DNA of 64,000 nucleotides from Nocardioides sp. REDSEA-S33_B3. GTDB lineage: Bacteria > Actinomycetota > Actinomycetes > Propionibacteriales > Nocardioidaceae. The notes under the pieces are model-generated. The model did not search any database, had not been told where the DNA came from, and was given only the letters and a program-made list of their open reading frames with translations. A program made the translations under genes and the position numbers. This document shows, one piece after another, positions 582-63,889 of this stretch; within the stretch, counting starts at the first letter, position 1, and each line of letters opens with the position of its first letter. The stretch covers positions 27,860-91,859 of the forward strand of contig LUPK01000015.1 of the NCBI GenBank assembly GCA_001627335.1. Direction: 5' to 3'.

Positions 582-694
582 GGTCGGGCAGGCGAGCGCC
601 AGCGAGCCGTGGTCGAGACCCGGTGACCCGACCGCTGCACCCTCAGGTGGTCGAGCAGCGAGGAGCGCCAGCGACGAGCGGGCGTCGAGACCCC
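582..694. repeat. Two dispersed palindromic repeats (582-620, 646-694)
   Basis: GGTCGGGCAGGCGAGCGCCAGCGAGCCGTGGTCGAGACC; GGTGGTCGAGCAGCGAGGAGCGCCAGCGACGAGCGGGCGTCGAGACCCC. Confidence 0.85.
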
Positions 695-705
695 GACCGA
701 AGTGC

Positions 706-2670
706 CTACCGCAACCGCAACGTGGCCGACTTGGCCCACTTGCTCCTGCCGCCCTCACCGACGGCCCGCACCTTGAACCGCACGGTCCGGTCCTTGCGCT
801 TGACCTTCACCTTCGTCGAGGACGTCCTGAAGCCGATCTTCTTGAACTTCCCCTTGCCCCGCTTCACCGCCACCTCGAACCGAACGCCCGGCGGGCTCGG
901 GTCGCCGCTGGCCCACCAGAGCACGACCTTCTTCTTCGAGTGCTGCCACAGCTGCGGGTTGGTGGGGCGGCCGGGCTTGGCCAGGGTGCCGCCGTCGACG
1001 GTCCAGGTGCCGGTGGTCGAGCGGCCGGCGAGGTCGGTGGTGGTGACGGCGAGGGTCGTGTCGCCGTACGGCAGCTCGAGGTCGAAGACCGCCGACCCGT
1101 CCGGTGCGCTGAACCCGACGTAGTCGACCGGGCTCAGCGAGCCCAGCGCGTCGCCGTAGGTGCCGGGCGGGTCGATCTCCGCGCGCGCGACCTCGACGCC
1201 GTCCGCGGTCACGACGACCCGCGAGGTCCACAGCGGCCCCGCCGGCAGCGCGAAGGGCAGCGACACGCGCGAGCTCCCGTCGGGGTCGGCGACCCGGCAG
1301 GACCCGCCGGTCGCGGTGGGCGCGTAGCCGGTCATCTCGTCGGCCGCGCACGGGTCGAACGCCACCACGGGCCCCACCTCGGGGCGGGTGATGGTCACGA
1401 CGGCGCCGTCGTCGTCCTGCGCGCCGAAGGCGACGGTGATGCCGCCGGGCAGCCACACCGAGGTGCCGGGGGCGTGCCCGGTGCGGTACCCCTCCACGTC
1501 CCCGTTCTCCCGCGCGACGCCGATGCTCGGCACGAGCACCGAGCCGACGTCGTACGCCGGCAGCCGGGCGTCGTGGGCGTCGACCGGGGTCGCCAGCGCC
1601 CGCACCTGCACGCCGCGTCCGCCGCCGAAGTAGAGCTCGGGGTGGCCGGGCGTCCCGCTCCCCTCGACGGCCCACTCCTCGTCCCAGCGCAGCGGCCAGT
1701 CGTCACCGGTCGCGGGGCGGTACTCCAGCGCGAACGCCCGCCGCTCGTTCAGCGGCACCACCGCCATCCGGGTGCCGGCGCCGACCACGTCGATCGGCCG
1801 CAGCGTCAGCGTCGTGGTCTCGCCGACGACGGCGAGGTCGTCGGGCCCGAGCAGTCCGAGCATGTCGCGCTCGTACGCCGAGAAGCGCATCGTCCGGGAG
1901 TTGTTGCCCATGACGGCCGAGGTGTCGCCGTACGTCACGACGTCCCACCGCGACGCGGCGAGCGGGTCGTCGGTGTGGTCGGGGAGCAGGTTGGCGGCGT
2001 GCTCGAGCCCGAGGTTGTGCCCGACCTCGTGGGCGAAGACCTCGATGTCGAGGTGCTTGCTGCCGGACACGTTCTCCGGCTCGACGGGCGCGCTGCCCGG
2101 CGACCAGGAGCCGTTCATGTGGATGCCGGAGCCGCCGAGCGAGGCCTGCCCGGCGTAGGTGCACTTGGTGCGCGTCGTCACGACCACCCAGGTCGCGTAC
2201 GCCGACGCGCCCTCGAGAGCCGCCTGGATCTGCTCGGAGTAGCGCCCGCCGACGGTGAACACCCCGCAGGGCTCGTCGTCGGCGGCCGGCAGCTCGACGT
2301 AGTCGTGCATCCGGAAGCGGTAGCGCCCGCCCGTCTCCCGGTCGTACTCCTCGTCGAGCCGCTCGATCATCCGTCGCGACTCCTCCTCGTCGGTCCCGTG
2401 CGGCCCGGCGGCGGTGTCGAGTGCGAGCACGGCGACGTCGTAGGTCACCGACGTACGCCGCTGGCCGGCCGCCCGCCCGGCAGCCCCCTCCCCCGGCCGA
2501 CCCGCCAGGTCGCGCAGCGTCGGCAGCGGCTCGGCGTCCGGGTCGTGGGCGTAGTCGGGCATCGGCGACGGCTCGACGGCCTGGACAGAGGCCGAAGGTG
2601 TCGTCGCGACCAGCGCCGCAGCGAGCGCGGTCGGGAGCAGAGCGGACAGGACACGGCGTGGGGACGTCAT
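706..2670 (-). CDS. Secreted zinc metalloprotease (HEVGHNLGLEHA; gametolysin/M11-like) with C-terminal FnIII-like region
   Basis: Signal peptide MTSPRRVLSALLPTALAAALVATTPSASVQA; HExxHxxGxxH motif. Confidence 0.8.
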   Translation of the reverse strand: MTSPRRVLSALLPTALAAALVATTPSASVQAVEPSPMPDYAHDPDAEPLPTLRDLAGRPGEGAAGRAAGQRRTSVTYDVAVLALDTAAGPHGTDEEESRRMIERLDEEYDRETGGRYRFRMHDYVELPAADDEPCGVFTVGGRYSEQIQAALEGASAYATWVVVTTRTKCTYAGQASLGGSGIHMNGSWSPGSAPVEPENVSGSKHLDIEVFAHEVGHNLGLEHAANLLPDHTDDPLAASRWDVVTYGDTSAVMGNNSRTMRFSAYERDMLGLLGPDDLAVVGETTTLTLRPIDVVGAGTRMAVVPLNERRAFALEYRPATGDDWPLRWDEEWAVEGSGTPGHPELYFGGGRGVQVRALATPVDAHDARLPAYDVGSVLVPSIGVARENGDVEGYRTGHAPGTSVWLPGGITVAFGAQDDDGAVVTITRPEVGPVVAFDPCAADEMTGYAPTATGGSCRVADPDGSSRVSLPFALPAGPLWTSRVVVTADGVEVARAEIDPPGTYGDALGSLSPVDYVGFSAPDGSAVFDLELPYGDTTLAVTTTDLAGRSTTGTWTVDGGTLAKPGRPTNPQLWQHSKKKVVLWWASGDPSPPGVRFEVAVKRGKGKFKKIGFRTSSTKVKVKRKDRTVRFKVRAVGEGGRSKWAKSATLRLR

Positions 2671-2755
2671 GTGAGGACCTCGGGTCGGGGGAGCTCCCAC
2701 CCACCCTGCCGACATCCCCGCCACCCCGCAGCACTTTCGACCAACCCCCAATGCA

Positions 2756-2914
2756 GGTCGAGGAGGTTGCGCAGCAACCGTCTCGAGACCCCGTGACCGA
2801 CACACCCACCGCAACCCCAGGTGGTCGAGCAGCGAGGAGCGCCAGCGACGAGCGAGCGTCGAGACCACCGACGCTGGTCGAGCAGGCGAGCGCCAGCGAG
2901 CCGTCGTCGAGACC
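2756..2914. repeat. Three dispersed palindromic repeats (2756-2790, 2820-2869, 2876-2914)
   Basis: GGTCGAGGAGGTTGCGCAGCAACCGTCTCGAGACC; GGTGGTCGAGCAGCGAGGAGCGCCAGCGACGAGCGAGCGTCGAGACCACC; GGTCGAGCAGGCGAGCGCCAGCGAGCCGTCGTCGAGACC. Confidence 0.9.
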
Positions 2915-2956
2915 CCGCGACCCGACCACCGCCCCCGACCACCCCCGAGGACCTGG

Positions 2957-3748
2957 GTGAACCCCAGTAGGTTCACCAGCGTGCGCATGCTCCACGGCCC
3001 CACGCCCGGACCGGTCGATGACGACGACCTCGCCGATGCCTACCCCTGGCCCGACACGACCGAGCGCCCCTACATCCGCGCGATGATGGTCAGCACCCTC
3101 GACGGCGCGGCGGCGGGTGACGACGGGCTCAGCGGCTCGGTGTCGGGTGGGGCGGACCGCGCGGTCCTGCGCGCCGTACGCCGCTTCGCAGATGTCGTCC
3201 TGGTCGGCGGCGGCACCATGAAGGCCGAGGGGTACGGCCCCCTCAAGGCACGCGACGAGGACGCCGCGCGGCGCGAGCAGCAGGGCCAGGCGAAGGCGCC
3301 GGTGCTCGCGGTCGTCTCGGGCAGCCTCGACCTGCCGCTGGGCGAGGGGTCGTTCGCGGACTCCGACGTCACGCCGATCGTGTTCACGACCGAGAAGGCC
3401 GACCCGACGAAGGTCGACGACGCCCGCCAGCGGGTGGAGGTCGTGCAGCTGCCGGGCGAGCACGTGGACGCCGCGACCGTGATCGACCAGCTCCACAAGA
3501 AGGGGCTGGGCCGGATCGTGTGCGAGGGCGGGCCGGGCCTGCTCAACCAGGTGACGGACGCGGGCCTGCTCGACGAAGCCGACATCACCATCTCCCCGAT
3601 GCTGGTGGGCACCGAGAAGACCCCCGACACCACGATGCTCCACAACCCGGCGAAGTTCGAGTTGCAGCACGTCCTGACGGCGGAGGAGTTCCTGATGCTG
3701 CGCTACACGAAGGCCGACCAGAGCAAGCAGCAGGGAGACGACCAGTGA
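2957..3748 (+). CDS. Pyrimidine reductase family protein (RibD C-terminal / DHFR-like fold)
   Basis: RPYIRAMMVSTLDGAAAGDDGLSG...ADVVLVGGGTMKAEGY...IVCEGGPGLLNQ. Confidence 0.8.
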   Translation: MNPSRFTSVRMLHGPTPGPVDDDDLADAYPWPDTTERPYIRAMMVSTLDGAAAGDDGLSGSVSGGADRAVLRAVRRFADVVLVGGGTMKAEGYGPLKARDEDAARREQQGQAKAPVLAVVSGSLDLPLGEGSFADSDVTPIVFTTEKADPTKVDDARQRVEVVQLPGEHVDAATVIDQLHKKGLGRIVCEGGPGLLNQVTDAGLLDEADITISPMLVGTEKTPDTTMLHNPAKFELQHVLTAEEFLMLRYTKADQSKQQGDDQ

Positions 3749-4647
3749 TCGACCTGCGCCGCCTGGCCAGGCTGGTCGAGGAACACGGCGACCTGCTCGA
3801 CGCACCGGTCGCGCCGTTCCGGCTGTCCACGCCTTCGAGCAGCCGCGAGGTCGACACCGACGTCGAGCCGGCGATCATGGGCGTGGTCAACCTGTCCAAG
3901 GACAGCTGGTACCGCGAGTCCGTCGCCATCGGCACCGACGCCGCCCTGCGCCTCGGCCGCCTGCAGGTCGCGCAGGGCGCGCACTTCATCGACGTGGGCG
4001 CGGAGTCGATCCAGGACTACGCCGAGGACGTCGCCGCCGAGCAGCAGGTCGAGCAGCTCGTCCCCGTCATCGAGGGGCTTACCGGCGACGGCATCGTCGT
4101 CTCGGTCGAGGCCTACCACCCGAGCGTCGTGAAGGCCTCCTTCGAGGCCGGGGCCCGCGTCCTCAACCTCACCGGGTCCGGGCACGACGAGGAGATGTTC
4201 GCCCTGGCAGCGCAGTACGACGCCAGCGTGATCCTCTGCCACGTCGGCGGCACCCACCCCCGCGACCTCGACCCCGACGCCGACCCGGGCGCCGACCCGA
4301 TCGCCCACATGACCCCGCAGTTCGAGGCCCGCATTGCGGCCGCCCGCGCCGCCGGCGTCACCAGCCTCTCCCTCGACCCGGGCATCGGCTTCGGCTTCCG
4401 CTGGGCCCCGACCATGGACGCCCGGGTGGCCTACCAGTCCCACGTCCTGCTGGAGACCTTCCGCCTGCGCGCCCTCGGCCTCCCGCTGTGCCACGCCCTT
4501 CCCGCCGCCCGCCACCTGTGGGGCGAGGAGGTCCGCTCGGCCGAGCACTTCTTTGCCGTCCTCGCCCACCTCGGCCGCACCGGCATCTACCGCGTCCACG
4601 AGGTCCCCCGCGTCGCCGCCGCCCTCAGGACCCTCCACACCCTCTAG
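3745..4647 (+). CDS. Dihydropteroate synthase-like protein (divergent)
   Basis: MGVVNLSKDSWYRES...AQGAHFIDVGAESIQ...SLDPGIGFGF; GTGA overlap with the upstream stop. Confidence 0.75.
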   Translation: MIDLRRLARLVEEHGDLLDAPVAPFRLSTPSSSREVDTDVEPAIMGVVNLSKDSWYRESVAIGTDAALRLGRLQVAQGAHFIDVGAESIQDYAEDVAAEQQVEQLVPVIEGLTGDGIVVSVEAYHPSVVKASFEAGARVLNLTGSGHDEEMFALAAQYDASVILCHVGGTHPRDLDPDADPGADPIAHMTPQFEARIAAARAAGVTSLSLDPGIGFGFRWAPTMDARVAYQSHVLLETFRLRALGLPLCHALPAARHLWGEEVRSAEHFFAVLAHLGRTGIYRVHEVPRVAAALRTLHTL

Positions 4648-4703
4648 AGACCTTCTAACGGTCGGAGATCAAGGAGTCCGTTGGGCAATCGGCTCTACGG
4701 ACA

Positions 4704-5961
4704 GTGGGCGACGTGTTTCCAACCACGAACGGATTCAGACGTTGCCGCCATTCTGCCTCGTATGCCCGGCGCGCGATCCCGGCACTGGAGATGGTGTCGC
4801 TGACGATCGAGGGTGACTCGTGGGCCAAGGGTGGGCCGGGCGCGCTCGATGGCACCCGGTTCTGGGACCGGGTGGCCTCCCGCAACCGCATGATCGTCGC
4901 CGCCAACCGGGGCATCTCCGGCTCACGTTCCTACGGCATCCTCGCCAGCATCCAGAGCAACTGGACGCCCAACAGCATCGGCATGGTCGGCCTCGGCGAC
5001 ATCGTCATCAACGACGTTCGGAACTACGCCGACGACCACGGTCGCACCACCTCCCGCGAGGTGTTCCGCGCCATGCTCGACCACCTCTCGGCCTGGGCGG
5101 TCGAGACGAGTAGCTCGGCTTCCCTGATCTACGGCCCCGGGTGGACCGCAGGTCTCAGCGACGGCACCGCTGGGCGCACGTCGACATCGCCTGGACGGGC
5201 GACGCCTGCGCCATCCGGGTGAGGTGTGTGAACGGCGCCGGGGCCAACGTCACCGTCACCGACACGGGCACCGGCACCGGCACCGGCACCGGCACGACGG
5301 TCGCAACGTTCTCCACGGGCGGCTTCCGCGACACCTTCACTGGCGCCATTGTGATGTCGGGCTACGGCGACGGGGACCACACCGTCCGTGTCTCCGTCTC
5401 GGCGGCAGCCACCGTCGCAGGCGTGAACCCGCTCATGGAGTCGCCACCGCTCATCGCTTGGATGAAGCCCGGCCCCTACGTCAACGGCGGCGCCGACCAG
5501 CAGGCCCGCCTCGCCCTCTACCTCGCCGAGCTCCAGACGGTCGCCGACGACTGGGCGAACGTGGTGTCCATCGGTCACGACGCCGACTGGGACATGGACA
5601 CCATGCTCTACACCGACGGCTTCCACCCCAACGACCTCGGCAACGCCTACTACGCCGACCGCATCAACACGGTGCTGGCCGCGCGGCTGGGCGACGACTT
5701 CGAGCAGGGCCTGAACGCCGTGGTCGGCACCTCAGCAGGCACCTATACGCCGCCCGTCCCGGTCTACACCGCCCCAGGCGCGACAGTGCCCGCTCAGGTC
5801 ACCGGACTTGCTGCTACCGGCCAGCAGGGCGCGGCCGTGCTCACCTGGACACGGGCGAGCGACGGCGGCTCCACCCTCACCGGCTACTCCGTGCAGTACC
5901 GCGTCAGCGGGGCAGGCTCGTGGGTGGATGCTCCTGATGCCACCGGCACCGCCACCGGGGC
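4704..5961 (+). pseudogene. SGNH/GDSL hydrolase with FnIII region, frameshifted near 5150-5200 and truncated by the IS at 5962
   Basis: TIEGDSWAKG...NRGISGSRSYGI in one frame; VDIAWTGDACAIRV...DGFHPNDLGNAYYADRI and a FnIII-like region continue in another frame. Confidence 0.65.
5264..5297 (+). repeat. GGCACC-type hexanucleotide tandem repeat (TGTGTG peptide)
   Basis: ggcaccggcaccggcaccggcaccggcac. Confidence 0.85.
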
Positions 5962-16246: not shown

Positions 16247-18835
16247 TCAGCGGATCTTGAACGGCGTGTCACTGACGTCGTAGAAGTAGTTCCCCCGCGC
16301 CTCGACCATCACCCACGCCGCGTCGGCGGTGATGCCGGCCGGCAACCGGACCTTCTTCTTCCCGTCGTTGCGGGTGTTGTTGGCCAGCACGGTGCCCCAG
16401 GTCTGTCCGTCGTCGGTGGACAACCGGATGCGGACCTTGCGGGCCAACTCCTTGGTTCCGTTGACCTTCCAGCGCACGCCGATCTTCTGCCCAGCGTGCT
16501 CGGTGCGACCGCTGTACTGCGAGCGCAGGAGGAAGGGGCCGGCCGAGCGCTGCACCTTGATGGCGACGTCGGCGTAGGACGTGCCCCCGCCGACCGGGTT
16601 CCCGTCGCGCGACGTGAGCCGGAAGTGCATGGTCCGTCGGCCGATGTGCGCGGCCCCTCGGTACTGCCCGGTCGGGAGGAACTCCGAGTAGCAGTCCAGC
16701 ACCTTGTCCCGGGCGGAGCTCCCGGAGACCCCGGGGCACTTGCCGGTCTTGGCGTTGGTGCGACCGCGCAGTACCTGCTCGAGGTCGGGGAACCATCGGG
16801 TGGGCTCGGTCGAAGCGGTGTTCTGCCCGGGCGAGGGGCTTTCGAGGGCACCGCTGCCGGTGACGCGCGCGTTGTCGCCGAACTGGCGGAACAACGGGCC
16901 GAACACCTTGCTGTTGTTGAACAGTGCCGTGCCGATGCCTGGGTCGTCCTGCTCCCAGGAGTAGGTCATCGGGTCGCCGTCAGGGTCGGTGGCCGACCCG
17001 CGGAGCGTGAAGGGCGTGCGAACCGGGATCGTCTTCCGCGCAGGCGCCGCGACGACAGGCCGCAGGTTGCCGGAGGCCTCCGCCTCGCCACCGTTCCGGG
17101 CCGGGCCACCCCGTGCGACCTCGACGACCTCGGCTTCCACTCCGGGTCCACCCGTGGCGACCAGCTCCGGGCGGTCCTGTCGGACTCCGCCCACATCCGG
17201 CTCGAGGCTGGAGGCGTAGACGATCTGGAACCCAGCGTCCGAGGGCTGTCCCGGGGCGGCCGCGGACGAGGAGACCTGCCCGAGGTAGGGGTCGTAGTCC
17301 CATCGGGCGACCCGGACATCACTGCCCACCAGGTCGCCGACCGCGGACTGGACGGCCGCCCGGGTGTAGCCCGTCCCACGGGTGAGGGTCGTGCTCTTCT
17401 CACCCAGGCTCAGGGTCACGGTGTCCCCGTCGGTGACGAAACCGCTGAGCGAGACCTGCTGGACCTCGACCACGTCCACTTGGTCGCCGCCTACGTAGCT
17501 CCCGATCTCCTCGATGGAGTGCTGGGAGAAGTACGGGTCGGTGTGCGGCTGCAGGTCGTCGGCTCCGCAGATGCCGGCGTAGGCCATGACCGAGGAACCG
17601 GAGCCGGGCTCGACGGAGGCGTCGGAGCCGTTGGCGCCGCAGAAGTCGCCCGCCCCGTTGAACGTGTGCTCGGCGGAGAACTGGTGACCGATCTCGTGGG
17701 CGACGTAGTCGATGTAGAAGACATCACCGCGCGGCTGGGTGAGCCCGGTGCAGCCACCGCCGGCGTAGTCGCGCCCGGCGACGCCCAGCCACGCCACTCC
17801 TCCGCCGTCGACGCCCAGCGTCAGGTGACCCACGTCGTACGCCGAAGCGCCGATGAGGTTCGCCAGCACGAGCCTCGTCCGCCCGAGCGTGTCGGTCCCG
17901 CACCGGCCGAGCATCCCCTCGCTGTCCTCGATGGCGTCGTCGAAGCAGGGCGCGGACCCACAGGGCCCGTCAGGGCCAATCGCCTTCGCGTCGGAGTCGA
18001 GGTTGAGCTCCTCGGAGTCCTCGACCAGCAGGAAGCGGATGGCGTGGTCGTCGTTGTAGATTTGGTTGAGCCGGGTGACGAGCGCGACCTTCGCCGCCAG
18101 CACGTTCTCGCTGCCCCAGTAGTCGGCGTACGTCGGGTCGTTCAGCAACGCCAGCCGGTACGTCCGACGCACCACCTGCCCCTGAGGTGGTCGAGCAGCC
18201 GAACTGGGCTGGTCGAGGTGCGAGCGAAGCGAGCCACGAGACCCCTCGGGCACCAGAACATCGACCGGTGGTCGAGCAGCGACGGCCGTCTGACGGCCCG
18301 AGCGAGCGTCGAGACCACCCACCGCAACGACATGCCGAGCGCCACCGGACGTCCCAGCCGGCTCGACCACCCACTCCTGGGCCCCGCGCACGGACGCCGA
18401 CACTCCAAGTGGCGTCACCGCCACGGAGACCGTGGTGGTCGGGTCGCCCACCGATCGCCCGGCATAGGCGGCGAGTTCCGGGTGACGCTCAGCCAGTCGC
18501 GGCTCCATCACCTCGACCGGCTGGACCTCGAACTCCACGACGTCACCACCTGGGGCGGGCAGCTCCAGTAGATCCCCGCGCAGGTCGCGCTTCACCACCC
18601 GTTGATCGACGCGCACCACCTCACCGTCCCCGAGGCCGGTCGAGTCCGACAGCCCGGATGGTCGAGCAGCAAGGAGCGCCAGCGACGAGCGAGCGTCGAG
18701 ACCATCCTCCGCGAGTTCAGCGGCGACGGCCACCGAGGCCTGAGCGTCATCGAGACCCGGTGACGCAGGCACGGCCGCAACCGCCGGCGCCCCGACAACG
18801 GACGCGGCCAGGACAGCGACAACCAGTCGCCGCAC
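16247..18835 (-). CDS. Secreted zinc metalloprotease (HEIGHQFSAEHTF; reprolysin-like)
   Basis: Signal peptide; VAHEIGHQFSAEHTFNGAGDFCG; N-terminal region contains peptides encoded by dispersed repeats (GLDARSSLALLAARPSG). Confidence 0.8.
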   Translation of the reverse strand: MRRLVVAVLAASVVGAPAVAAVPASPGLDDAQASVAVAAELAEDGLDARSSLALLAARPSGLSDSTGLGDGEVVRVDQRVVKRDLRGDLLELPAPGGDVVEFEVQPVEVMEPRLAERHPELAAYAGRSVGDPTTTVSVAVTPLGVSASVRGAQEWVVEPAGTSGGARHVVAVGGLDARSGRQTAVAARPPVDVLVPEGSRGSLRSHLDQPSSAARPPQGQVVRRTYRLALLNDPTYADYWGSENVLAAKVALVTRLNQIYNDDHAIRFLLVEDSEELNLDSDAKAIGPDGPCGSAPCFDDAIEDSEGMLGRCGTDTLGRTRLVLANLIGASAYDVGHLTLGVDGGGVAWLGVAGRDYAGGGCTGLTQPRGDVFYIDYVAHEIGHQFSAEHTFNGAGDFCGANGSDASVEPGSGSSVMAYAGICGADDLQPHTDPYFSQHSIEEIGSYVGGDQVDVVEVQQVSLSGFVTDGDTVTLSLGEKSTTLTRGTGYTRAAVQSAVGDLVGSDVRVARWDYDPYLGQVSSSAAAPGQPSDAGFQIVYASSLEPDVGGVRQDRPELVATGGPGVEAEVVEVARGGPARNGGEAEASGNLRPVVAAPARKTIPVRTPFTLRGSATDPDGDPMTYSWEQDDPGIGTALFNNSKVFGPLFRQFGDNARVTGSGALESPSPGQNTASTEPTRWFPDLEQVLRGRTNAKTGKCPGVSGSSARDKVLDCYSEFLPTGQYRGAAHIGRRTMHFRLTSRDGNPVGGGTSYADVAIKVQRSAGPFLLRSQYSGRTEHAGQKIGVRWKVNGTKELARKVRIRLSTDDGQTWGTVLANNTRNDGKKKVRLPAGITADAAWVMVEARGNYFYDVSDTPFKIR
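18184..18319. repeat. Dispersed palindromic repeats inside the metalloprotease ORF (18211-18243, 18267-18319)
   Basis: GGTCGAGGTGCGAGCGAAGCGAGCCACGAGACC and GGTGGTCGAGCAGCG...GCGAGCGTCGAGACCACC. Confidence 0.85.
18656..18708. repeat. Dispersed palindromic repeat inside the metalloprotease ORF
   Basis: GGATGGTCGAGCAGCAAGGAGCGCCAGCGACGAGCGAGCGTCGAGACCATCC. Confidence 0.9.
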
Positions 18836-18837
18836 GC

Positions 18838-19521
18838 TCAGCCCCCGAGCGCCCAGCGCCCGAAGAGGGTGCCGGAGTCTTCCAGCAGCATGGTCAGCTC
18901 GAGCGGCACGTTGATGGGCGCACCCTCGGTCGTCCGCGGATAGGCGCCAGCCACGAGGCGCGGCACCGTGGTGGCGGCGACCTCGTCGACGCAGCCTTGG
19001 AAGACCATGTCCCGCGACAGGTGCGGCCCGCCCTCGCAGAGCTGAGACATCCAGCCGCGCTCGGCGAGTGTGGCCTTCAGTTGCGGCAGGTCGACCCGGT
19101 GGGAGCCGAGCTCCAGGATGTGGTCGTCGCCCAGGATTTCCCGTGCCGCCGGCAGCCCGTCGGAACGAGAGCAGGTAGCCAGGTGGACCGACCCGGCCGG
19201 CGCCCCTTGGAGCGACTCGGGCACCTGGGCCTTGCGTGACACCAGCACGATCGGCACGTCGGTGGGTGCGTACTTCTCTGCCTTGGCGGTGCCGGCTCCC
19301 ACGATGATCACGTCGGCCAGCGAGCGCAGCGCCTGGAAGACGCGCTGGTCGGCCGCGTTGTTGATCGAGGCAGTACGTGCGTCGTCGCCGGTGGCAGAGC
19401 CGTCCACGGTGCTCACCATGCCCACCCTCAGCCAGGGCTGCCCTGCCGGCGGAGCGTAGAGCTCGGCCAGGTCCGCGTCGGTGATGTTCTCGTTCGGCGT
19501 TGCGCCGGTCAGGACTCGCAT
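18838..19521 (-). CDS. Pyrimidine reductase family protein (RibD-C), second copy
   Basis: RVGMVSTVDGSATGDDARTASINN...ADVIIVGAGTAKAEKY...LCEGGPHLSRDM. Confidence 0.8.
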   Translation of the reverse strand: MRVLTGATPNENITDADLAELYAPPAGQPWLRVGMVSTVDGSATGDDARTASINNAADQRVFQALRSLADVIIVGAGTAKAEKYAPTDVPIVLVSRKAQVPESLQGAPAGSVHLATCSRSDGLPAAREILGDDHILELGSHRVDLPQLKATLAERGWMSQLCEGGPHLSRDMVFQGCVDEVAATTVPRLVAGAYPRTTEGAPINVPLELTMLLEDSGTLFGRWALGG

Positions 19522-36103: not shown

Positions 36104-36145
36104 GGGTCTCGACGCCCGCTCGCTGGCACTCGCTGCTCGACCACC
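36104..36145. repeat. Dispersed palindromic repeat between ugd and the gmd pseudogene
   Basis: GGTCTCGACGCCCGCTCGCTGGCACTCGCTGCTCGACCACC. Confidence 0.85.
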
Positions 36146-38276: not shown

Positions 38277-40183
38277 ACGGACACCTTGGGGGCGAGGGCG
38301 GCCAGGGCCGCGCGGAGGAGGGACTCGATGTGGGCCGCGGCGCGCTCGCACGCCTCCGGGCCACGGCGGTAGGGGTCAGCCACGTCCAGGTCGGGGGACG
38401 CCGTCGCGCGGTGTGCGCCGACCGCTGCGAGGAGCTCGAGGCCGTGGAGGCCCTCTTGCCCGGCGAGGGAGTCGACGAACTGACCGAGGGTGAAGACCTT
38501 GCGGAAGAGCGCCGGGTGGTCGTCGAGGATGAACTGGCGGTGGTCGGCCTCTGCCGTCAGCACCACGTCGGCCCAGTCGAGCTCGGCCTTCGTCAGGGGG
38601 CGGCTGCGGAAGTCCTGCTCCCCGGTGACACCACGAGGCTCAAGGGTGACCGCCATCTCGGGGTTCATCGGGTGGTCGCTGAAGCCGTGAGTGCCGGCCG
38701 ATCGGAACTCGATCGCCGCGTCGCCGGCCAGGTGGCGGGCGGTGAGCTCCATGAAGGGGCTGCGGCAGATGTTGGCGGTGCAGACGAAGAGGACCTTGAG
38801 GGGTTCGTCCGGAGCCTGGGTGGTCTCGGGGGCCTCGGTTCCGAGACGGCGCTGGCGCGCCTCCTCAACCGGTGGCTTGTCGGTGGTCTCGACGCCCGCT
38901 CCTCGCTGGCGCTCGTCGCTGCTCGACCACCTGTCAGGGGTGCTGAGCGGGAGGTCGAGGTAGCCGGCTTCCTGGAGCGCCACGATCACGTCGTCGAGGG
39001 CGTCGGGGATGGTGCGGCCGGTGGTGTCGACGCGGACGTCGGCGTCTCCCGGGACCTCGTAGGGGCTGGAGATGCCGGTGAACTCCGGGATCTCACCCGC
39101 GCGGGCCTTCGCATAGAGCCCCTTGCGGTCGCGGCGCTCGCACTCCTCCAGGGGGGTCGCAACGTGGACGAGGAAGAACGCACCTCCAGCATCCTCGACC
39201 ATCGCGCGGACCTGCTGCCGCGTCTCGTCGAACGGGGCGATCGGGCTGACGACCGCCAGGCCGCCGTGACGGCTGATCTCGGCCGCGACCCAGCCGATCC
39301 GGCGGATGTTGGTCTCGCGGTCGGCCTTGGAAAAGGTCAGGCCGGCCGACAGGTTGCGGCGGACCACGTCGCCGTCGAGGCTGGTGATGGTGCGTCCGCC
39401 CTGCTCGAGAATCTTGTCCATCAGCGCGCGCGCCAGGGTCGACTTGCCGCTGCCGGAGAGACCGGTGAAGAACAGGACGAGCCCCTGCTCGTCGGGCGCC
39501 GGACGGTCTGCGGCCACCACAGGGGCGGCCACCTCGGCGTAGTCACCCTCGGGGTCGTCGGCCAGCGCCACGACAGGGTCGTCGCCGGCGTACGTACCCA
39601 GCACCTGCACGCCGAGAGCGTGGTCGGTGTTTGGGTCTTCGTGCGCGGCCAGCGGGACCGCGACGACCGCGGCTTCAGGCAGGGTCTGCGCCACCAGGCG
39701 GGTGGCGCGGATGAGGGCCACGGGCGAAAGGTCCGGGGTGCCGGTGCCGACCAGCGCCACCAGCACGACGGCCCCGAGGCCGCGTACCTGCTCGGCCTGG
39801 GTCTCGGTCAGGGCGTCGGTGACGGGGACCCAGGTGCGACCGGCGTACTGCTCCCGGGCCTGGGCGGGGGTGAGGTAGAGCTCGCGGAACGGGCCGTACT
39901 GCGCGTGGGTGAGCGCGTCCACGCTGCCGCCGGGCACGGTCACGCGGGCGAGAGGGAGACCCTCAGGGTCGACCAGCTCCACGCCGCCCGCGGTGACGGC
40001 GGCTGCGTACACGTCCTCCGGAAGAACAAGCGAGATGAGGCTCTCGAGGCTCGCTTCGCTCGCACCTCGACCACCGGCGGCGCGCACCGAGAACGAGGTG
40101 AGGGGGGCGAGGGCACCGGTCGCGAGGAGCTCGAGGTCGTCGAGCTCGCGCGGAGTCGGACAGAACTGCGGGAGGGCACTCAC
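38273..40183 (-). CDS. ATP-sulfurylase-like N-terminus + adenylyl-sulfate kinase (CysC) + low-molecular-weight protein-tyrosine-phosphatase fusion
   Basis: LELLATGALAPLTSF; FFTGLSGSGKSTLARAL...SLDGDVVRRNLSAGLTFSKADRETNIRRIGWVA; VLFVCTANICRSPFMELTARHL and DVADPYRRG. Confidence 0.9.
   Translation of the reverse strand: MSALPQFCPTPRELDDLELLATGALAPLTSFSVRAAGGRGASEASLESLISLVLPEDVYAAAVTAGGVELVDPEGLPLARVTVPGGSVDALTHAQYGPFRELYLTPAQAREQYAGRTWVPVTDALTETQAEQVRGLGAVVLVALVGTGTPDLSPVALIRATRLVAQTLPEAAVVAVPLAAHEDPNTDHALGVQVLGTYAGDDPVVALADDPEGDYAEVAAPVVAADRPAPDEQGLVLFFTGLSGSGKSTLARALMDKILEQGGRTITSLDGDVVRRNLSAGLTFSKADRETNIRRIGWVAAEISRHGGLAVVSPIAPFDETRQQVRAMVEDAGGAFFLVHVATPLEECERRDRKGLYAKARAGEIPEFTGISSPYEVPGDADVRVDTTGRTIPDALDDVIVALQEAGYLDLPLSTPDRWSSSDERQRGAGVETTDKPPVEEARQRRLGTEAPETTQAPDEPLKVLFVCTANICRSPFMELTARHLAGDAAIEFRSAGTHGFSDHPMNPEMAVTLEPRGVTGEQDFRSRPLTKAELDWADVVLTAEADHRQFILDDHPALFRKVFTLGQFVDSLAGQEGLHGLELLAAVGAHRATASPDLDVADPYRRGPEACERAAAHIESLLRAALAALAPKVSV
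38837..38931. repeat. Two dispersed palindromic repeats inside the CysC-PTP linker (38837-38870, 38882-38931)
   Basis: GGTTCCGAGACGGCGCTGGCGCGCCTCCTCAACC; GGTGGTCTCGACGCCCGCTCCTCGCTGGCGCTCGTCGCTGCTCGACCACC. Confidence 0.9.
40039..40072. repeat. Dispersed repeat (short subtype) in the 5' part of the CysC-PTP ORF
   Basis: GGCTCTCGAGGCTCGCTTCGCTCGCACCTCGACC. Confidence 0.75.
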
Positions 40184-41230: not shown

Positions 41231-41270
41231 GGTTTCGAGGCTCGTCGCTGGCGCTCCTCGCACCTCAACC
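41231..41270. repeat. Dispersed repeat after the asparaginase gene
   Basis: GGTTTCGAGGCTCGTCGCTGGCGCTCCTCGCACCTCAACC. Confidence 0.8.
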
Positions 41271-41676: not shown

Positions 41677-41775
41677 GTGGTCTCGACGCCCGCTCCTCGC
41701 TAGCGCTCGTCACTGCTCGACCACCTGAGTGCGCGGGGTCTCGAGAGGCTCGCTCCGCTCGCACCTCGACCGCCG
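41677..41775. repeat. Two dispersed repeats between DUF2516 and the BY-kinase
   Basis: GTGGTCTCGACGCCCGCTCCTCGCTAGCGCTCGTCACTGCTCGACCACC and GGTCTCGAGAGGCTCGCTCCGCTCGCACCTCGACC. Confidence 0.88.
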
Positions 41776-45635: not shown

Positions 45636-45640
45636 GACAA

Positions 45641-46356: not shown

Positions 46357-46481
46357 GGTCTCCACGACGGCTCGCTGGCGCTCGCCTGCTCGACCATCAA
46401 CGCACGAGGCCCGGACCTCATGGTCCGGGCCTCGCTAGTGGCGCTGGGTCTCGGGGCTCGCTTCGCTCGCGCCTCGACCGG
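46357..46481. repeat. Two dispersed repeats flanking the 46405-46434 terminator
   Basis: GGTCTCCACGACGGCTCGCTGGCGCTCGCCTGCTCGACCATC; GGGTCTCGGGGCTCGCTTCGCTCGCGCCTCGACC. Confidence 0.75.
46405..46434 (-). terminator. Hairpin terminator after the DUF1416-like gene
   Basis: CGAGGCCCGGACC (46405-46417) / GGTCCGGGCCTCG (46422-46434). Confidence 0.7.
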
Positions 46482-47689: not shown

Positions 47690-47776
47690 GTGGTCTCGAC
47701 GCGCGTTTCGGCGCTGGCGCGCCTCACTGCTCGACCACCGACGCCGGTCGAGCAGCGAGCGGGCGTCGAGACCGGC
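47690..47776. repeat. Two dispersed repeats between DUF4395 and sseA
   Basis: GTGGTCTCGACGCGCGTTTCGGCGCTGGCGCGCCTCACTGCTCGACCACC; CGGTCGAGCAGCGAGCGGGCGTCGAGACCGG. Confidence 0.85.
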
Positions 47777-51350: not shown

Positions 51351-52751
51351 ATGAGTTCGAAGCAGACGGATCGAGGCGCGGAGGCCAGCTCCGCGCTCGA
51401 CTCGCTGCGCGAGCTCGACCTCAGCACCATCGATGTCAGCGCCATCCCGGAGCAGCTGCTGGGCGACCTGCTCGCCACCGCCACCCGGGTCGAGTCCCAG
51501 GCCGCCGCGCTCCGTGGCGCCGTGCTCGCGGAAGCCGACCGTCGCAAGACCGCGCTGCGCACGGCCGCGAGCGGCACGGACGCATGGGCGGTCGAGTTCA
51601 CCGGCGACACCCGCGAGATGAACGCGGGCGGGCTACGGATCGCCCGGCTGCTGGAGGAGAAGTACCACGCGACCCGCGACGCCTTCGCCGCCGGCCGAGT
51701 CACGAAGGCTCAGGTCCGCGTCATCGTCAACGCCGCCGAGCAGTCCCCCACCCGCGCCACCGCGCTGCAGGTCGCCCAGGCCGAGGAGCTCATCCTCGGC
51801 AAGGCCACCGGCGACGGTCGCCGCAACGGCAAGCCGATGGACCCCAAGCGGCTGCGTCAGGCCGCTCGACGGATGTACGACCGGATCGACCACGACCTGG
51901 CCGACGAGCACGAGGCGATCATGCTCGGCCGGGAGTCCAAGCACGCCCAGCGCGACACCTACCTCATGCTCAGCGACAACGGCGACGGCACCTGGTCGGG
52001 CCGCTTCACGATCCCCGAGATGCACGGGCACCTCCTCACCTGGGCCCTCGACAAGATGACCGCCCCACGCCGCCAGTCCAAGGGCCCCCTCGGCCAGCAG
52101 GTCACCGACGAGGCCGCGGCCGACGGGAACGGCTGGCTCCCGGGTCCGCTGGAGAAGCGGGGCAACGCCCTGTGCGAGCTCATCGAGCACCTCCCCACCA
52201 CCGGCTGGCAGCTCACCGGCGGCGGCAACGCGACGACCCTGCTGGTGCGGGTCGAGTTCGACGACCTCGTACGCCGCGTCTCCGACGACATGGAGCAGCT
52301 CGGCGTCGGGCGGCTCGACAACGGCGTCAAGCTCACCGCGGCCCACGTCCAGCGGCTCGCTTGCGAGGCCGAGATCGTCCCGACCATCCTCGACAGCGAG
52401 GAGGCGGTGATGTTCCACGGTCGCGGACAGCGGCTCCACGACCGCCACCAGCGCAACGCCCTCGGCCAGATCCACGACTCCTGCGCGATCAGCGGCTGCG
52501 AGCGGCCCTTCGCCTGGTGCGAGATCCACCATCCGTACCCCTGGGCGGCCGGCGGCGGCACCGACATCACCAACGCGGTCCCCCTCTGCGGCTGGCACCA
52601 CCAACGAGCCCACGACGGCGACTTCGACCTCAGACGAGACCCACCCAACGGGCCGCACGCCTGGAAGCTCGCCCGCCGCCGACCACCCCGCGACTGGCGC
52701 GACCGGGCCGAGGCAGCTCAAGCCGCCGGCTACACCATCGTGCGCAGCTGA
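51351..52751 (+). CDS. DUF222 / HNH endonuclease (13E12-repeat family)
   Basis: LLGDLLATATRVESQAAALRGAVLAEADRR...CAISGCERPFAWCEIHHPYPWAAGGGTDITNAVPLCGWHHQRAH. Confidence 0.92.
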   Translation: MSSKQTDRGAEASSALDSLRELDLSTIDVSAIPEQLLGDLLATATRVESQAAALRGAVLAEADRRKTALRTAASGTDAWAVEFTGDTREMNAGGLRIARLLEEKYHATRDAFAAGRVTKAQVRVIVNAAEQSPTRATALQVAQAEELILGKATGDGRRNGKPMDPKRLRQAARRMYDRIDHDLADEHEAIMLGRESKHAQRDTYLMLSDNGDGTWSGRFTIPEMHGHLLTWALDKMTAPRRQSKGPLGQQVTDEAAADGNGWLPGPLEKRGNALCELIEHLPTTGWQLTGGGNATTLLVRVEFDDLVRRVSDDMEQLGVGRLDNGVKLTAAHVQRLACEAEIVPTILDSEEAVMFHGRGQRLHDRHQRNALGQIHDSCAISGCERPFAWCEIHHPYPWAAGGGTDITNAVPLCGWHHQRAHDGDFDLRRDPPNGPHAWKLARRRPPRDWRDRAEAAQAAGYTIVRS

Positions 52752-52856: not shown

Positions 52857-53405
52857 TCAGGCCTCGACGATGCCGTCGAGCGCGGAGAGGACCGCCTCCT
52901 TGCGCGGGGCGCCGCTGGCGCGCGTCGCCTCGCTGCCCGAGGCGTCGAGGATCAACGTGGTCGGCGTGCGCAGCACGTCCAGCGCACGGACCAGCTCCAG
53001 GTGGTGCTCGGCATCCACCTCGAGGTGGACCACGCCTGGCACCACGCCGGCGACGTCACTGAGGATCGTGCGGGTCGCACGGCACGGCGCGCAGAACGCC
53101 GAGGAGAACTGCAGCAGCGTCGCCCGCTCGCCCAGCTGGGCCTCCGGCAGGGCCTCCAGGACGGCGGTCCAGGCGGCGCCGGTGGGTGCTGCGGTGGAGT
53201 GGTCTCGCGAGTGGTCTCGACGCCCGCTCGTCGCTGGCGCTCCTCGCTGCTCGACCACCTCGGCGGAGCCGTCACCGGTCTGCTCGACCACCTGGGGGCG
53301 CGGCGCAGAGGCGCTCTTGAAGCGGCCGTCCGTGCGGGCGCGGTAGAGGCCGAAGCCGAGGGCCAGCACGACGGCGATCACGACGATGGTCAGACCGGTG
53401 CCCAT
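52857..53405 (-). CDS. Membrane-anchored thioredoxin-like protein
   Basis: N-terminal TM; LLQFSSAFCAPCRATRTILSDVA...VLRTPTTLILDASG; linker contains dispersed-repeat peptide. Confidence 0.82.
   Translation of the reverse strand: MGTGLTIVVIAVVLALGFGLYRARTDGRFKSASAPRPQVVEQTGDGSAEVVEQRGAPATSGRRDHSRDHSTAAPTGAAWTAVLEALPEAQLGERATLLQFSSAFCAPCRATRTILSDVAGVVPGVVHLEVDAEHHLELVRALDVLRTPTTLILDASGSEATRASGAPRKEAVLSALDGIVEA
53211..53291. repeat. Dispersed repeat plus partial copy inside the thioredoxin-like ORF
   Basis: GTGGTCTCGACGCCCGCTCGTCGCTGGCGCTCCTCGCTGCTCGACCACC then GGTCTGCTCGACCACC. Confidence 0.9.
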
Positions 53406-54323: not shown

Positions 54324-54366
54324 TCACCACAGCACCAACACAGCGCCGCGCAGCGCGAACCAGCGC

Positions 54367-54406
54367 GACGAAGGGCCCGGGAGCAAGTGCTCCCGGGCCC
54401 TTCGTC
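54367..54406 (+). terminator. Strong hairpin terminator after hsp20
   Basis: GACGAAGGGCCCGGGAGCA / TGCTCCCGGGCCCTTCGTC perfect stem. Confidence 0.85.
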
Positions 54407-54519
54407 ACGTCTGCGCCGGGCGGCCACTGGTCCAGACCACCTCGAGAGCGACCCATCCGGGCCGATTGGCAGGATCGAACGTGGGGTAATCGGACTCGGG
54501 AGAGATCGTGGAGGCCCTG

Positions 54520-59204: not shown

Positions 59205-59227
59205 GAGACTCCCACTCCGGGAGTCTC
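59205..59227 (+). terminator. Hairpin terminator
   Basis: GAGACTCCC-ACTCC-GGGAGTCTC. Confidence 0.65.
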
Positions 59228-59280
59228 GTGCTTTCCGGGCCTGTCCTACCCGGTGGGCGCTCCGGAGTCGCGACTGCGCG

Positions 59281-60264
59281 TCAGCGCAGCTTCGGGCGGA
59301 CGTGCAGGCCCACCTCGGGGTCCACGACGACCTCCTGGGCCGCCGGCATCCCGTCGACCTCGAGGGTCACCTCGAGCGGCACGTTGCGCTTGACCAGCGC
59401 CAGCGCGATCGGGCCCAGCTCGTGGTGGCGCGCCGAGGACCCGACGAAGCCGACCGTCTTGGTGGCCTCGCCCGAGCCCATGAGCAGCTCGGTGCCGGGG
59501 GCAGGCAGACGGTTCTCGGTGCCGTCGAGGTGCAGCAGCGTCAGCCGCCGCGGCGGGCGACCCAGGGTGTGCACGCGGGCGACGGTCTCCTGGCCGCGGT
59601 AGCAGCCCTTGTCCAGGTGCACAGCCGGGCCGACCCAGCCGACCTCGTTGGGGATCGTGCGGGCATCGGTGTCGACCAGGTGGCGCGGCTCGCCGCGCGC
59701 GATCCGCAGCGCCTCGAAGGCCCACAGGCCGCACGCGGGCCCGGCGGCCTCGGCGTAGGCCGCGAGCTCGCTGCGCGGGACCAGGTCGTACGTCGGAGCG
59801 TCGGCGCGCGAGCGCCAGGCCACGGCCCAGTCGTCGGTGACGTCGGCGAGCTCCACGCGGGTCATGAAGACCATCCGGCCGAGCCAGTCGAGCAGCGGGC
59901 CGGCAGCACCGGGCTCGGTGTGCGCCCAGAACGACTCGCCGTCGTCGTACCCGGTGAACGCGTGCTCCACGTGCCCCTGCGGGCTCAGGATCAGCGCGGT
60001 CGTCCACTCCTTGGGGGCCAGCTGCAGGAAGTGCTGGGTGGTCAGCGAGTGCAGCCAGGTCAGCCGCTCGGGGCCGCTGATGCGGATCACGTCGCGGTGC
60101 GAGAGGTCGACGAAGCCCTCGCCGGACTCCAGGGTGCGCTGCTCGGCGTTGAACGAGCCGTAGTGCGCGGCGACCGGGGCGTCGACGCCGTCGCCGGCGA
60201 CCGCGCCGGGCAGCGAGAGCAGGGGGCTGGGTGCCTTGCTGGGGCTCGTGGCGGGGTCGGTCAT
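59281..60264 (-). CDS. ygfZ: YgfZ-type folate-binding protein
   Basis: VDLSHRDVIRISGPERLTWLHSLTTQHF...VHLDKGCYRGQETVARVHTLGRPPRRL. Confidence 0.92.
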   Translation of the reverse strand: MTDPATSPSKAPSPLLSLPGAVAGDGVDAPVAAHYGSFNAEQRTLESGEGFVDLSHRDVIRISGPERLTWLHSLTTQHFLQLAPKEWTTALILSPQGHVEHAFTGYDDGESFWAHTEPGAAGPLLDWLGRMVFMTRVELADVTDDWAVAWRSRADAPTYDLVPRSELAAYAEAAGPACGLWAFEALRIARGEPRHLVDTDARTIPNEVGWVGPAVHLDKGCYRGQETVARVHTLGRPPRRLTLLHLDGTENRLPAPGTELLMGSGEATKTVGFVGSSARHHELGPIALALVKRNVPLEVTLEVDGMPAAQEVVVDPEVGLHVRPKLR

Positions 60265-60265
60265 G

Positions 60266-60763
60266 TCAGGCCCTCTTCAGCCGCGCCCACAGGTGGGGCT
60301 GCAGCTCCTGGCCGACCGCGGCCATGTCGTAGGCGTAGAGCAGGTCACCCTCGACGTTGCCGTAGAGACGGTGGCCGGCGGTGACCTCCTTGGCGGTCTC
60401 GGTGTAGCCGACGCCCGCGGTGCGCAGCTCGAGCTTGCCGTCGGCGGCCTCGCCGTACCAGATCTCGGAGAAGCCGATGTTGTGCGCGAGCACCAGCTCG
60501 ACCTTGCCCGGCTCCGGGCAGCGCAGGTAGCCGGTCTCCTGGGCGGCGTCACGGACCTTCTCGCCGTTCTCGTCGATCACCCACGAGCGCGCGAAGTAGT
60601 GCAGGAAGGGACGGCCGTCCTGCTGGAAGACCACCTCCTGGCCGTACTGGAACGGCTCGATCGTCGGGTAGTCACCGTGGCCGTTGCCGATCCAGCTGCC
60701 GAGCAGCCAGGCGACGGGTCCACAGTTCGGGTGCAGGTTGGGAGGAAGCTCGAACGCCACCAC
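60266..60763 (-). CDS. FABP/nitrobindin-like heme-binding protein
   Basis: VAFELPPNLHPNCGPVAWLLGSWIGNGHGDYPTIEPFQYGQEVVFQQDGRPFLHYFARSW. Confidence 0.88.
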   Translation of the reverse strand: MVAFELPPNLHPNCGPVAWLLGSWIGNGHGDYPTIEPFQYGQEVVFQQDGRPFLHYFARSWVIDENGEKVRDAAQETGYLRCPEPGKVELVLAHNIGFSEIWYGEAADGKLELRTAGVGYTETAKEVTAGHRLYGNVEGDLLYAYDMAAVGQELQPHLWARLKRA

Positions 60764-60800
60764 GCCAGCGTAACGACCACCTGCTCCTAGGCTGGAGCCC

Positions 60801-61163
60801 ATGACGTCTCGGCTGCTGCTGAAGGTGACCTGCGCCGCGGAGGCGCCCGAGCGGGCCAACCAGGCCTTCACCGTCGCCGCGGCGGCCTGCGCGGCCGGCG
60901 CGGGGGTCTCGCTGTGGCTGACCGGCGAGGCCGCCTGGTGGGCCGTGCCCGGCAAGGGGCCCGACCTCGGGCTCGAGCACGCGCGGCCGGTCGAGGACCT
61001 GCTCGCGATCATCCTCGACATGGGCGAGGTGACGCTGTGCAGCCAGTGCGCGGAGCGGCGCGGGATCACCGTCGACGACGTGCGCGACGGGGTGCAGATC
61101 GCCGGTGCGGCGTCGTTCGTCGAGGAGGCGCTCACCGAGGGCGTGCAGGCGCTGGTCTACTAG
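60801..61163 (+). CDS. DsrE-family protein
   Basis: LLLKVTCAAEAPERANQAFTVAAAACAAGAGVSLWLTGEAAWWA...TLCSQCAERRGI. Confidence 0.8.
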   Translation: MTSRLLLKVTCAAEAPERANQAFTVAAAACAAGAGVSLWLTGEAAWWAVPGKGPDLGLEHARPVEDLLAIILDMGEVTLCSQCAERRGITVDDVRDGVQIAGAASFVEEALTEGVQALVY

Positions 61164-62030
61164 GTGCTGTGAGCGCGGCCGCACCTCCCCGGTGAGGAGG
61201 CGTCTTCTCGGTAGGCTGCCGCCACGATGAGCTCCCCCGGCCTCCCCCCTGACTCCTCGGCCGGGTCCCCCACCGGCGGGGACCCCGGCCGACGCTGGCT
61301 GCGCCGCAAGGACACCGGCCCCTCCCTCGAGGAGCTCGAGGCCCGGATCGCGGAGCAGACCGCAGCGGCCGAGCGCTTCGCCACCCTGCGCGCCGCGGCC
61401 GAGAAGGCCGCCACCGAGCAGGCCGCCGAGCGGATGATCGCCGAGGAGACCGCGGCCACCGCGCTGCGCGGGCGCAGCGAGTCCGACACCCGCCTGGCCG
61501 AGGCGCAGGCCCGGCTCGAGGAGGCGCTCCAGGCGCGTGCCGACGCGGAGGCCGCCCTGGCCGAGGCCGTCAGCGCGCGGGAGGCTGCCGAGGCGACGCT
61601 GAACGAGGCGTACGCCGCCCGCGAGGCCGCCGAGACCGTCGCCCAGGAGGCACAGGAGGCCGCCAGCGAGCAGGCCCGTCGCCGCGCCGCTGCCGACTCC
61701 AGCGCGGCCGCCGCCGCCAACGCCCGCGAGGCCGCGGAGGTGATCGCCGCCGAGCAGGCCGCTGCCGCGGAGGAGGCGTTCGCCCAGCGCGCCGCTGCCG
61801 AGGCCGCGGCGCAGGAGAGGGCCGAGGAGGCCGAGGCCGCGTACGCCGCCAGGCTCGAGGCCGAGGAGATCACCCGGGCCCACGCGGACGCCGCGACCCA
61901 CGCGCACTCGGACCGGGAGAACGCCGAGCACGACGCGCGCACCGCCCACGAGTCCGCGACCGCCGCGCACGCCGCGCGCGAGTCCGCGGAGGAGGCGGCC
62001 CAGGCCTCCGCCGAGGCGCGTGCGGAGGCC

Positions 62031-62516
62031 GACCGCGTCGCCGCGGAGCACGCCGCCGCCCGCACCGCCGCCGACGAGTCCGCCGCCGAGCAGGCCCGGC
62101 TCGCCGAGGAGGCCCACACCGCTCGGCTCTCCGCCGAGACCGCTGCCCGGGAGGCGGCCGACCTCGCCGCCTCGGCCCAGGCCGCGCGCGAGCAGGCCGA
62201 GGAGGCGGCGCGCCTGGTCGGGGAGTTCGCCGAGCACGCCCAGTCCGACCGGCGCGAGGCCGAGCAGGCCGCCACCGCCGCCCAGGAGCAGGCCGCCGCC
62301 GCCCACGCCGCGCGGGAGACGGCCGAGGCCGCGGCCGCTGCGTCCGCGGAGGCCCGGGCGGAGGCCGACCGCGTCGCCGCGGAGCACGCCGCCGCCCGCA
62401 CCGCCGCCGACGAGTCCGCCGCCGAGCAGGCGCGGCTCGCCGAGGAGGCCCACACAGCTCGCCTCTCCGCCGAGACCGCCGCCCAGGAGGCCGCCGACCT
62501 CGCCGCCGAGGCCCAC
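62031..62516 (+). repeat. Near-identical internal duplication, two ~150-bp copies offset by 336 nt
   Basis: GACCGCGTCGCCGCGGAGCACGCCGCCGCCCGCACCGCC... at 62031 and 62367. Confidence 0.9.
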
Positions 62517-63340
62517 ACCCAGCGTGAGGCGGCCGAGCAGGCCGCCGCCGCCCAGGGCGAGGCCGCCCGGGCCGCCGCCGAGGCCGAGACCGCCGCGCAC
62601 GAGGCATCTGCCGTGGCTGCCGCCGATGCCGAGTCCGCGCACGCCGCGCGGGCCTCAGCGGAGTCTTCTGCGGAGACCGCGCTCGCCGCCGCGACCGAGG
62701 CGCACGAGGGCCGCACCGCCGCCGACGAGGCCGCCCGGGTCGCCGCCGAGGCGCGCACCGCCGCGGAGCAGGCCGCCACCGAGCAGACCGAAGCGGCCCT
62801 GGCCGCCCACACCGCACGCACCGAGGCCGAGGAGGCCGCCCGGGCCGCCGCCGCGCACGCCGGCGAGGCGCAGGCGCAGCGTGAGAGACGGCCGCCGCCG
62901 AGGCGGTCGAGGCCCGCGCTCGGGCAGAGGCCGACGCGCAGACGCACGCCGAGCTGGCTGCGCAGGCAGCCGCCGAGCGCGAGGCTGCCGAGCGTCGTAC
63001 GAGCGAGGTGCTGGGGCAGCTCCAGGAGGCCCTCGACGCCCGCGCCGCCGCCGAGGCGAAGCTCGTCGAGGCGATCACCGCCCGCGCCGACGCCGAGGAG
63101 GCCGCCAGCCAGCGCGGCATCGACCGGCAGTCGGTCGAGGCGTCGGTGCGGCACCAGGCCGAGATCGCCGAGGCCGAGATGACCGCCCGGATCGAGGCCG
63201 AGCGGCGGGCCGCCGCACTCGCCACCGAGCTGGCCGAGGCCCGCGAGGAGCTGCTCGACGGCTCCGGGCGCCACCGGCGCTTCGGGCTCGGCGCCGCCAC
63301 CGGTTCGATCCCGCGGGTGACCGCGGAGCTCGGCTTCGAT

Positions 63341-63402
63341 GGTCGAGGTGCGACCTCCGATGGTCGAGGTGCGACGAGCGCCAGCGAGGAGCCTCGAGAC
63401 CC
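63341..63402. repeat. Dispersed repeats inside the coiled-coil protein ORF
   Basis: GGTCGAGGTGCGACCTCCGAT followed by GGTCGAGGTGCGACGAGCGCCAGCGAGGAGCCTCGAGACC. Confidence 0.82.
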
Positions 63403-63855
63403 AGCGACCGCAGCTGCGACCACCACCGCGCCGGTCGCTCTCCCCGCCCAGCGCAGCCGCGTCCCCTTCGTCGCCGGCGGCCTGGCCGTCGTGGCCCTCG
63501 CCCTGACCGGCCTCGCACTCGCGACCGGGCGCGGGACCGAGCCGGTCGGGGTGGCAGCGGTGCTGCTCACGGTGCTGCTGGTCTTCGTGGCGCTACGGGC
63601 CCGGCGTACCGCCTCGCACGTCACCATCGACGACCACGGCGTCGTCGACATCCGGTCCGGGGAGACCCACCACCGCTTCGACGTCTACGACGCCAGCACC
63701 GACCTGGAGATGGTGGGCGTGCCCGGCCAGCGCGGCTGGGAGGTGCGGTTCAAGCGCCGTGCCCTGCCGCCGGTCGTGGTGACCGCCGCGATGGTCGACG
63801 CTGAGGCGTTCAGCCGCGAGCTGCGGCGCTGGCGCCCGGGGCTGTAGCCCTCGCC

Positions 63856-63889
63856 GGTCGAGGAGGCGCGCCAGCGCCGTCTCGAGACC
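63856..63889. repeat. Dispersed palindromic repeat after the coiled-coil gene
   Basis: GGTCGAGGAGGCGCGCCAGCGCCGTCTCGAGACC. Confidence 0.88.

Follow-up and report, generated by a model that had tools for sequence, protein, structure and literature searches.

What are the short palindromic repeats that are scattered through this stretch of Nocardioides DNA, and what has spread them? The window (the whole stretch analysed, 64 kb) is part of contig C7 of an assembly of 3.56 Mb in 61 contigs. A sequence-only reading had counted more than 20 dispersed copies with paired changes in their ends and stems, likened them to REP/RPE elements, seen no RAYT transposase nearby, and suggested that they could be non-autonomous.

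Copy number and distribution

A scan for the grammar GGTYGAG..TCGARACC, with the outer 4 bp required to pair, returned 17 exact matches in the 64-kb window (16 distinct loci), against a mean of 0.1 and a maximum of 1 in 20 second-order Markov copies. Together with five clear one-mismatch copies (582, 18211, 38837, 46357 and 46447), and after removal of overlaps and chance coding matches, the window holds 21 clear copies; the earlier count is borne out, and the sequences named with it are present where they had been placed. Genome-wide, the stricter pattern GGTCGAGC(N10-40)GTCGAGACC finds 58 matches, which puts the total for this genome at 58 or more, while its reversed control finds none. The element pattern is matched in 131 of 150 family genomes, in many of them at high number, and within a single genus the copy number runs from 0 to about 200; no A-type element was matched in the plasmid and phage collections. 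A minimal core, TGAGCNTGTCGAA, is bimodal over the family genomes (0-5 versus 20-150 copies). A motif related to this core occurs in at least 120 viral contigs, where many pattern matches may be due to chance, and TGAGCNTGTCGAA-type cores may extend beyond Actinomycetota.

The left part of the window carries its elements on the plus strand: a C-like element at 582-620 (one mismatch) and an A-type element at 649-692, an F-type element at 2756-2790, the A-type element at 2823-2866 that had served as the original reference copy, and a C-type element at 2876-2914. They are followed by a D-type element at 18211-18243 (one mismatch), a GGCCGTC-stem variant at 18270-18316 and an A-type element at 18660-18703, a cluster (18211-18703) that is surrounded by partial copies. 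A gene pair encoding an M12B reprolysin-like protease and a RibD_C reductase is duplicated in this part (706-3748 and 16247-19521), with an element cluster near each copy. Between 24001 and 32000 the GC content drops to 57% amid 65-75%, perhaps marking an acquired island. The first minus-strand copy is a B-type element at 36105-36142.

Architecture of the hairpin

All length classes follow one grammar: A (44 nucleotides), B (38), C (39), D (33-35), E (40) and F (34-35), with additional 52-55-mers and a 19-mer, GGTCGAGCCTGTCGAGACC. A G(G/C)T tag precedes GGTC-[GA]-G.., an inner hairpin and ..C-[GA]-GACC, usually with further tandem GA/GA steps inside. Written as a hairpin, type A reads GGTC[GA]GC A GC[GA]G[GA]GC GCCA GC[GA]C[GA]GC GGGC GTC[GA]GACC, in which short Watson-Crick stems alternate with GA opposite GA. 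At loci L281-L285 of genome G043 a 19-mer, CCCTGAGCCTGTCGAAGGG, is nested within a B-type element as if inserted there.

The evidence for covariation consists of the counts of bases flanked by GA steps and of a shuffle test on the 44-mers. The flanked bases are G..C in 46 cases, C..G in 32, CC..GG in seven, CT..AG in three and GG..CT in one; identical pairs (C..C, GA..GA, CT..CT) account for five cases, the printed examples of which lie in contexts without element ends, and inside true elements no G..G or C..C was found between GA steps. Since GC[GA]GC can also be read as a direct repeat, the elements might be double-stranded, protein-binding repeats (GCGAGC..GCGAGC) that form no hairpin; this reading is scarcely credible and we exclude it, because the bases between the GA steps are complementary rather than identical in all copies in element context. 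Among 16 distinct 44-mers, 98.9% of cells are paired, and their covariation score of 0.111 (0.052 when shuffled) is reached by none of 500 shuffles; shifting the partner strand abolishes the signal. Permuting only the distinct (X,Y) types, an underpowered test, gives P values of 0.46 and 0.14. The paired change from GGTC/GACC to GGTT/AACC was confirmed at 41231 and 38837, as were the two inner-stem variants at 2756 and 63856.

The elements are not, however, the plain Watson-Crick palindromes that they had been taken for. Ordinary DNA folding reveals no excess stability (z about 0), which rules out a purely thermodynamic Watson-Crick palindrome, and DNA parameters lend no support to the GA hairpin, as it comes to +2.7 kcal/mol against a minimum free energy of -7.9. 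The palindromy becomes visible only when tandem GA/GA steps are scored as paired. These steps are presumably sheared G.A pairs, an assignment that we infer from known DNA and RNA chemistry because GA opposite GA cannot covary. Grammar and covariation, as distinct from physical evidence, indicate that one element strand is built to fold into a hairpin.

Outside the hairpin, the 5' tag is conserved, with G at position -3 in 97 of 99 elements and T at -1 in 83 of 99, whereas the 3' flank varies and GGT is accompanied by ACC in 16 of 46 A-type copies. This one-sided conservation explains most of the GGTGGTC/GACCACC extension proposed earlier. Pairing in flank pairs 1 (36 of 99, 29.9 when shuffled) and 3 (49, 47.6 when shuffled) does not stand out; pair 2 (65, versus 49.7 when shuffled, maximum 62) is the only one above all shuffles. 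The sequence-only reading had missed three features: the stem built on tandem GA steps, the tag on the 5' side, and the link to DUF222-HNH genes described below.

Position relative to genes

When genes are predicted with a simple caller, 72 of 97 elements fall between genes, where 9.5% would be expected; the others, in predicted coding sequence, comprise 18 in sense and seven in antisense orientation. High-copy, dispersed and mainly extragenic, these short palindromic repeats resemble REPs. Tandem clusters and BIME/REPIN-type pairs are present, among the latter an inverted pair at 47692-47736 (minus) and 47746-47773 (plus). No replication-strand bias was apparent in G140, a relative from the same genus group, with about 19 plus and 24 minus copies in the first half and 22 plus and 19 minus beyond (counted by hand, with the origin only inferred). 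The one-contig genome G132:C1 has 109 forward and 48 reverse elements, unlike the even split elsewhere.

In-frame copies inside genes, a feature shared with Rickettsia RPEs, occupy interdomain linkers, and type A is open in all six reading frames. Their hosts are a membrane thioredoxin, an APS kinase/LMW phosphatase, a xanthine dehydrogenase-like protein and an E2 acyltransferase protein. Two of these copies lie in the window on the minus strand: the A-type element at 53213-53256, in the linker of the membrane-anchored thioredoxin, is also found in G140 and is missing from the thioredoxin orthologues of three other relatives, and the A-inverted element at 38885-38928, in the APS-kinase/LMW-phosphatase linker, is identical in G140. 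The elements thereby supply peptide linkers to ordinary proteins, and their influence reaches beyond intergenic DNA into coding sequence.

These positions bear on the possibility that the elements act as RNA, as terminators or mRNA stabilisers kept by selection. RNA parameters predict folding of the inner portion of type B and favour the GA strand over the TC strand, and G-U variants occur, all of which would suit such a role. Nevertheless, tandem intergenic regions hold 16 sense and 26 antisense elements and thus no sense-strand bias, copies occur between divergent genes as well as within linkers in coding sequence, Rfam contains no match to the elements, and their sites are polymorphic between relatives, so that an RNA function appears very improbable. 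Of the earlier interpretation, the compensatory changes are supported; selection acting on an RNA is not. A strong inverted repeat at 54364-54409, past an HSP20 gene and partly kept in G140, is probably the terminator of that gene.

Turnover between relatives

G140 is syntenic with the window and about 85% identical to it; several copies are present on one side only and others are common to both. Among the minus-strand elements, the F-type element with GGTT/AACC ends at 38837-38870 (one mismatch), the D-type element at 41737-41771 and the D-type element at 46447-46479 (one mismatch) are absent from G140, and the C-like element at 46357-46395 (one mismatch) is common to both; the A-inverted element at 41679-41722 (minus) also entered the comparison. 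On the plus strand, the E-type element with GGTC..GACC ends at 63362-63401 is identical in G140. At two shared sites the subtype differs: the minus-strand E-type element with GGTT..AACC ends at 41231-41270 is replaced by a B-type element in G140, and the C-type element at 2876 by a D-type element. A 2.80-Mb region of G140 is 91% identical to a contig of Nocardioides sp. BWSM_104, and at 91% identity one relative has a cluster of three elements and an insertion of two that the other lacks.

Presence and absence of element sites is thus seen between relatives at 85-91% identity; single-element comparisons, which bear on an origin as MITEs of a DDE transposase with target-site duplication, gave no clean junction and defined no target duplication. 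Comparison of the genomes shows both gain or loss of elements and the replacement of one subtype by another where a site is already occupied. Fixation by vertical descent, which would have spoken against mobility, describes the many shared sites and fails for those with swapped subtypes or polymorphic occupancy. The likening to a mobile, non-autonomous REP/RPE-like family gains support from this polymorphism, from the in-frame copies in ORFs and from the lack of a RAYT.

DUF222-HNH insertion units

In G140, elements recur in pairs whose members lie a constant distance of about 1.2 kb apart, and these are DUF222-HNH (13E12) genes, to our knowledge a very widespread family with no known function. 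The protein scores above the PF02720 cut-off and its HNH residues are invariant; an AlphaFold model of one copy has a mean pLDDT of 58, too weak for a fold search. Six G140 units share homology that begins no more than about ten bases from a C-type element and stops at the stop codon, and the flanks are unrelated. One unit is cleanly missing in G545: there the right-flank sequence picks up again with the first base past the stop codon of the unit. G475 and G134 lack a unit at this site too, and another unit is absent from G475 and G545. Sequence comparison thus shows that DUF222-HNH genes are insertion units with an element as their left end in several species, and this, together with the element in the linker, is new here. 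The empty sites contained no element, so that it travelled with the unit, and a target role is not evident from them.

A second element lies in frame in the DUF222/HNH linker, in four species and as different subtypes; the left-end element is found in three. In orthologous units the site persists while the subtype switches: this genome has F and E (GGTT..AACC) elements, G140 has C, and the G475 and G545 units have yet other linker subtypes. The E-type element at 41231-41270 has the same sequence as the left end of DUF222-HNH units in this genome, and the F-type element at 63856-63889 (plus) is of the subtype found upstream of them. The DUF222-HNH gene in the window itself (51351-52751, plus) has no element at its ends, although other copies in the genome do. 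A second G140 subfamily carries one to three tandem A-type copies past the stop codon, and in G106 the units come with 44-mer arrays of their own. G083, from another genus and without GGTC elements, has hairpins of GCTCCTTGAGCTTGTCGAAAGGAGC type upstream of its DUF222 units; they share the GAGC..GTCGA core, and that core is dispersed in its genome. Units L350, L356 and L357 lie just past the TGA stop of the gene before them and likewise finish with TGA; a CTGA target preference is possible.

Element density near DUF222 loci is 0.28 per kb, compared with about 0.04 per kb. In G140, elements occur at eight of 11 DUF222 loci (0.41 expected), or, with paralogues collapsed, at two of five subfamilies (P=0.011, with windows drawn after seeing the data). 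DUF222 copy number, by inspection, bears no relation to element number and was rejected as a predictor.

A candidate mobilising enzyme

The elements could be what remains of classical REPs once driven by a RAYT that was lost or lies in the missing part of the genome, and their BIME/REPIN-like pairs, tandem arrays, 5' tag and extragenic location would fit. However, no PF01797 (Y1) transposase was found in this 87.7% complete assembly, with positive controls matched, and Y1_Tnp is absent from 148 of 150 family genomes (present in two), while 131 match the element pattern; none was found in the element-rich G157 and G437. RAYT-bearing genomes of the phylum have element counts at background, and the tag is not GTAG. 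The absence of a RAYT, claimed earlier for the window, thus extends to the genome and nearly all of the family; we reject the RAYT as mobiliser and consider a relic origin improbable and largely refuted. The other genes with elements on both sides encode a protease, a DUF2516 protein and a methyltransferase-like protein, and no transposase.

The reading that we tentatively prefer, and hold to be a serious possibility a little short of probable, is a RAYT-independent, REP-like, non-autonomous family of Nocardioides and relatives that owes its spread and its uniformity to breaks made by DUF222-HNH and to gene conversion; the role of the enzyme is one that we infer. On this view a DUF222-HNH unit would have the element both as its end and as the site that it recognises. 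The HNH nuclease would cut in an element or close to one, and the break would be repaired from other copies, whereby elements would be inserted, deleted or swapped and unit ends homogenised. The process would resemble homing by a nuclease, and solo elements would be left behind as by-products. Cutting and repair from another copy would account for the subtype swaps, the uniform unit ends within each genome and the lack of a transposase. The proposal is weakened because DUF222 is near-universal (148 of 150 family genomes, element-poor ones included) and the elements are not, and because some element-rich genomes have element-free units.

A competing explanation, a real possibility if a somewhat less likely one, is that some other enzyme moves the elements and that DUF222-HNH units merely carry those that landed in them, copied along. 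The DUF222 association is subfamily-specific, with elements near only a few of 30 one-per-genome loci; the units of G133, G129 and G020 have none at their ends, although G133 and G129 are element-rich; and most dispersed copies are away from DUF222. Against this stand the six copies whose homology begins at the element, the two element positions that persist across species despite subtype change, and the same-core hairpins at the left side of units in another genus. The broader form of the DUF222-HNH reading, in which homing-type nucleases acting on tandem-GA hairpin sites would spread and homogenise elements by break repair across Actinomycetota as a RAYT-free route for REPs, is slightly less likely again.

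Comparison with known systems

Like GTAG REPs and REPINs with their IS200/IS605-like Y1 transposase RAYT, the elements are short palindromes, dispersed and with a tag on the 5' side that is unpaired, occur in pairs and tandem arrays, and are mostly extragenic and polymorphic; unlike these, they lack a RAYT, carry a G(G/C)T tag in place of GTAG, have a tandem-GA stem and are linked to DUF222-HNH units. With the CGTC-tagged REPs (Rickettsia RPEs, Neisseria dRS3; PMC3733652) they share some in-frame ORF copies and the lack of a known dedicated transposase, but they differ in tag, stem start and loop and have neither the CGTC-type tag nor the AT-starting 8-9 bp stem and 4-5 nt loop of that group. 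In naming the phyla that have GTAG or CGTC repeats, the survey of Di Nocera et al. (2013) did not list Actinobacteria, and it left open how REPs without a RAYT spread (PMC3733652). To that question this abundant family brings a clear structural code, the lack of a RAYT and one particular enzyme as a candidate.

The open-access literature on REPs in Actinobacteria and on DUF222/13E12 with HNH yielded no description of the elements or of their link, nor of small hairpin elements at the end or in the linker of 13E12 units. A further close parallel is mycobacterial REP13E12/13E12 (DUF222-HNH), known here from the literature alone, which is of the same protein family and also multi-copy; in M. tuberculosis, REP13E12 loci are gene conversion hot spots (PMC13061034). 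If true, the homing-type reading of DUF222-HNH would give the 13E12 family its long-missing role.
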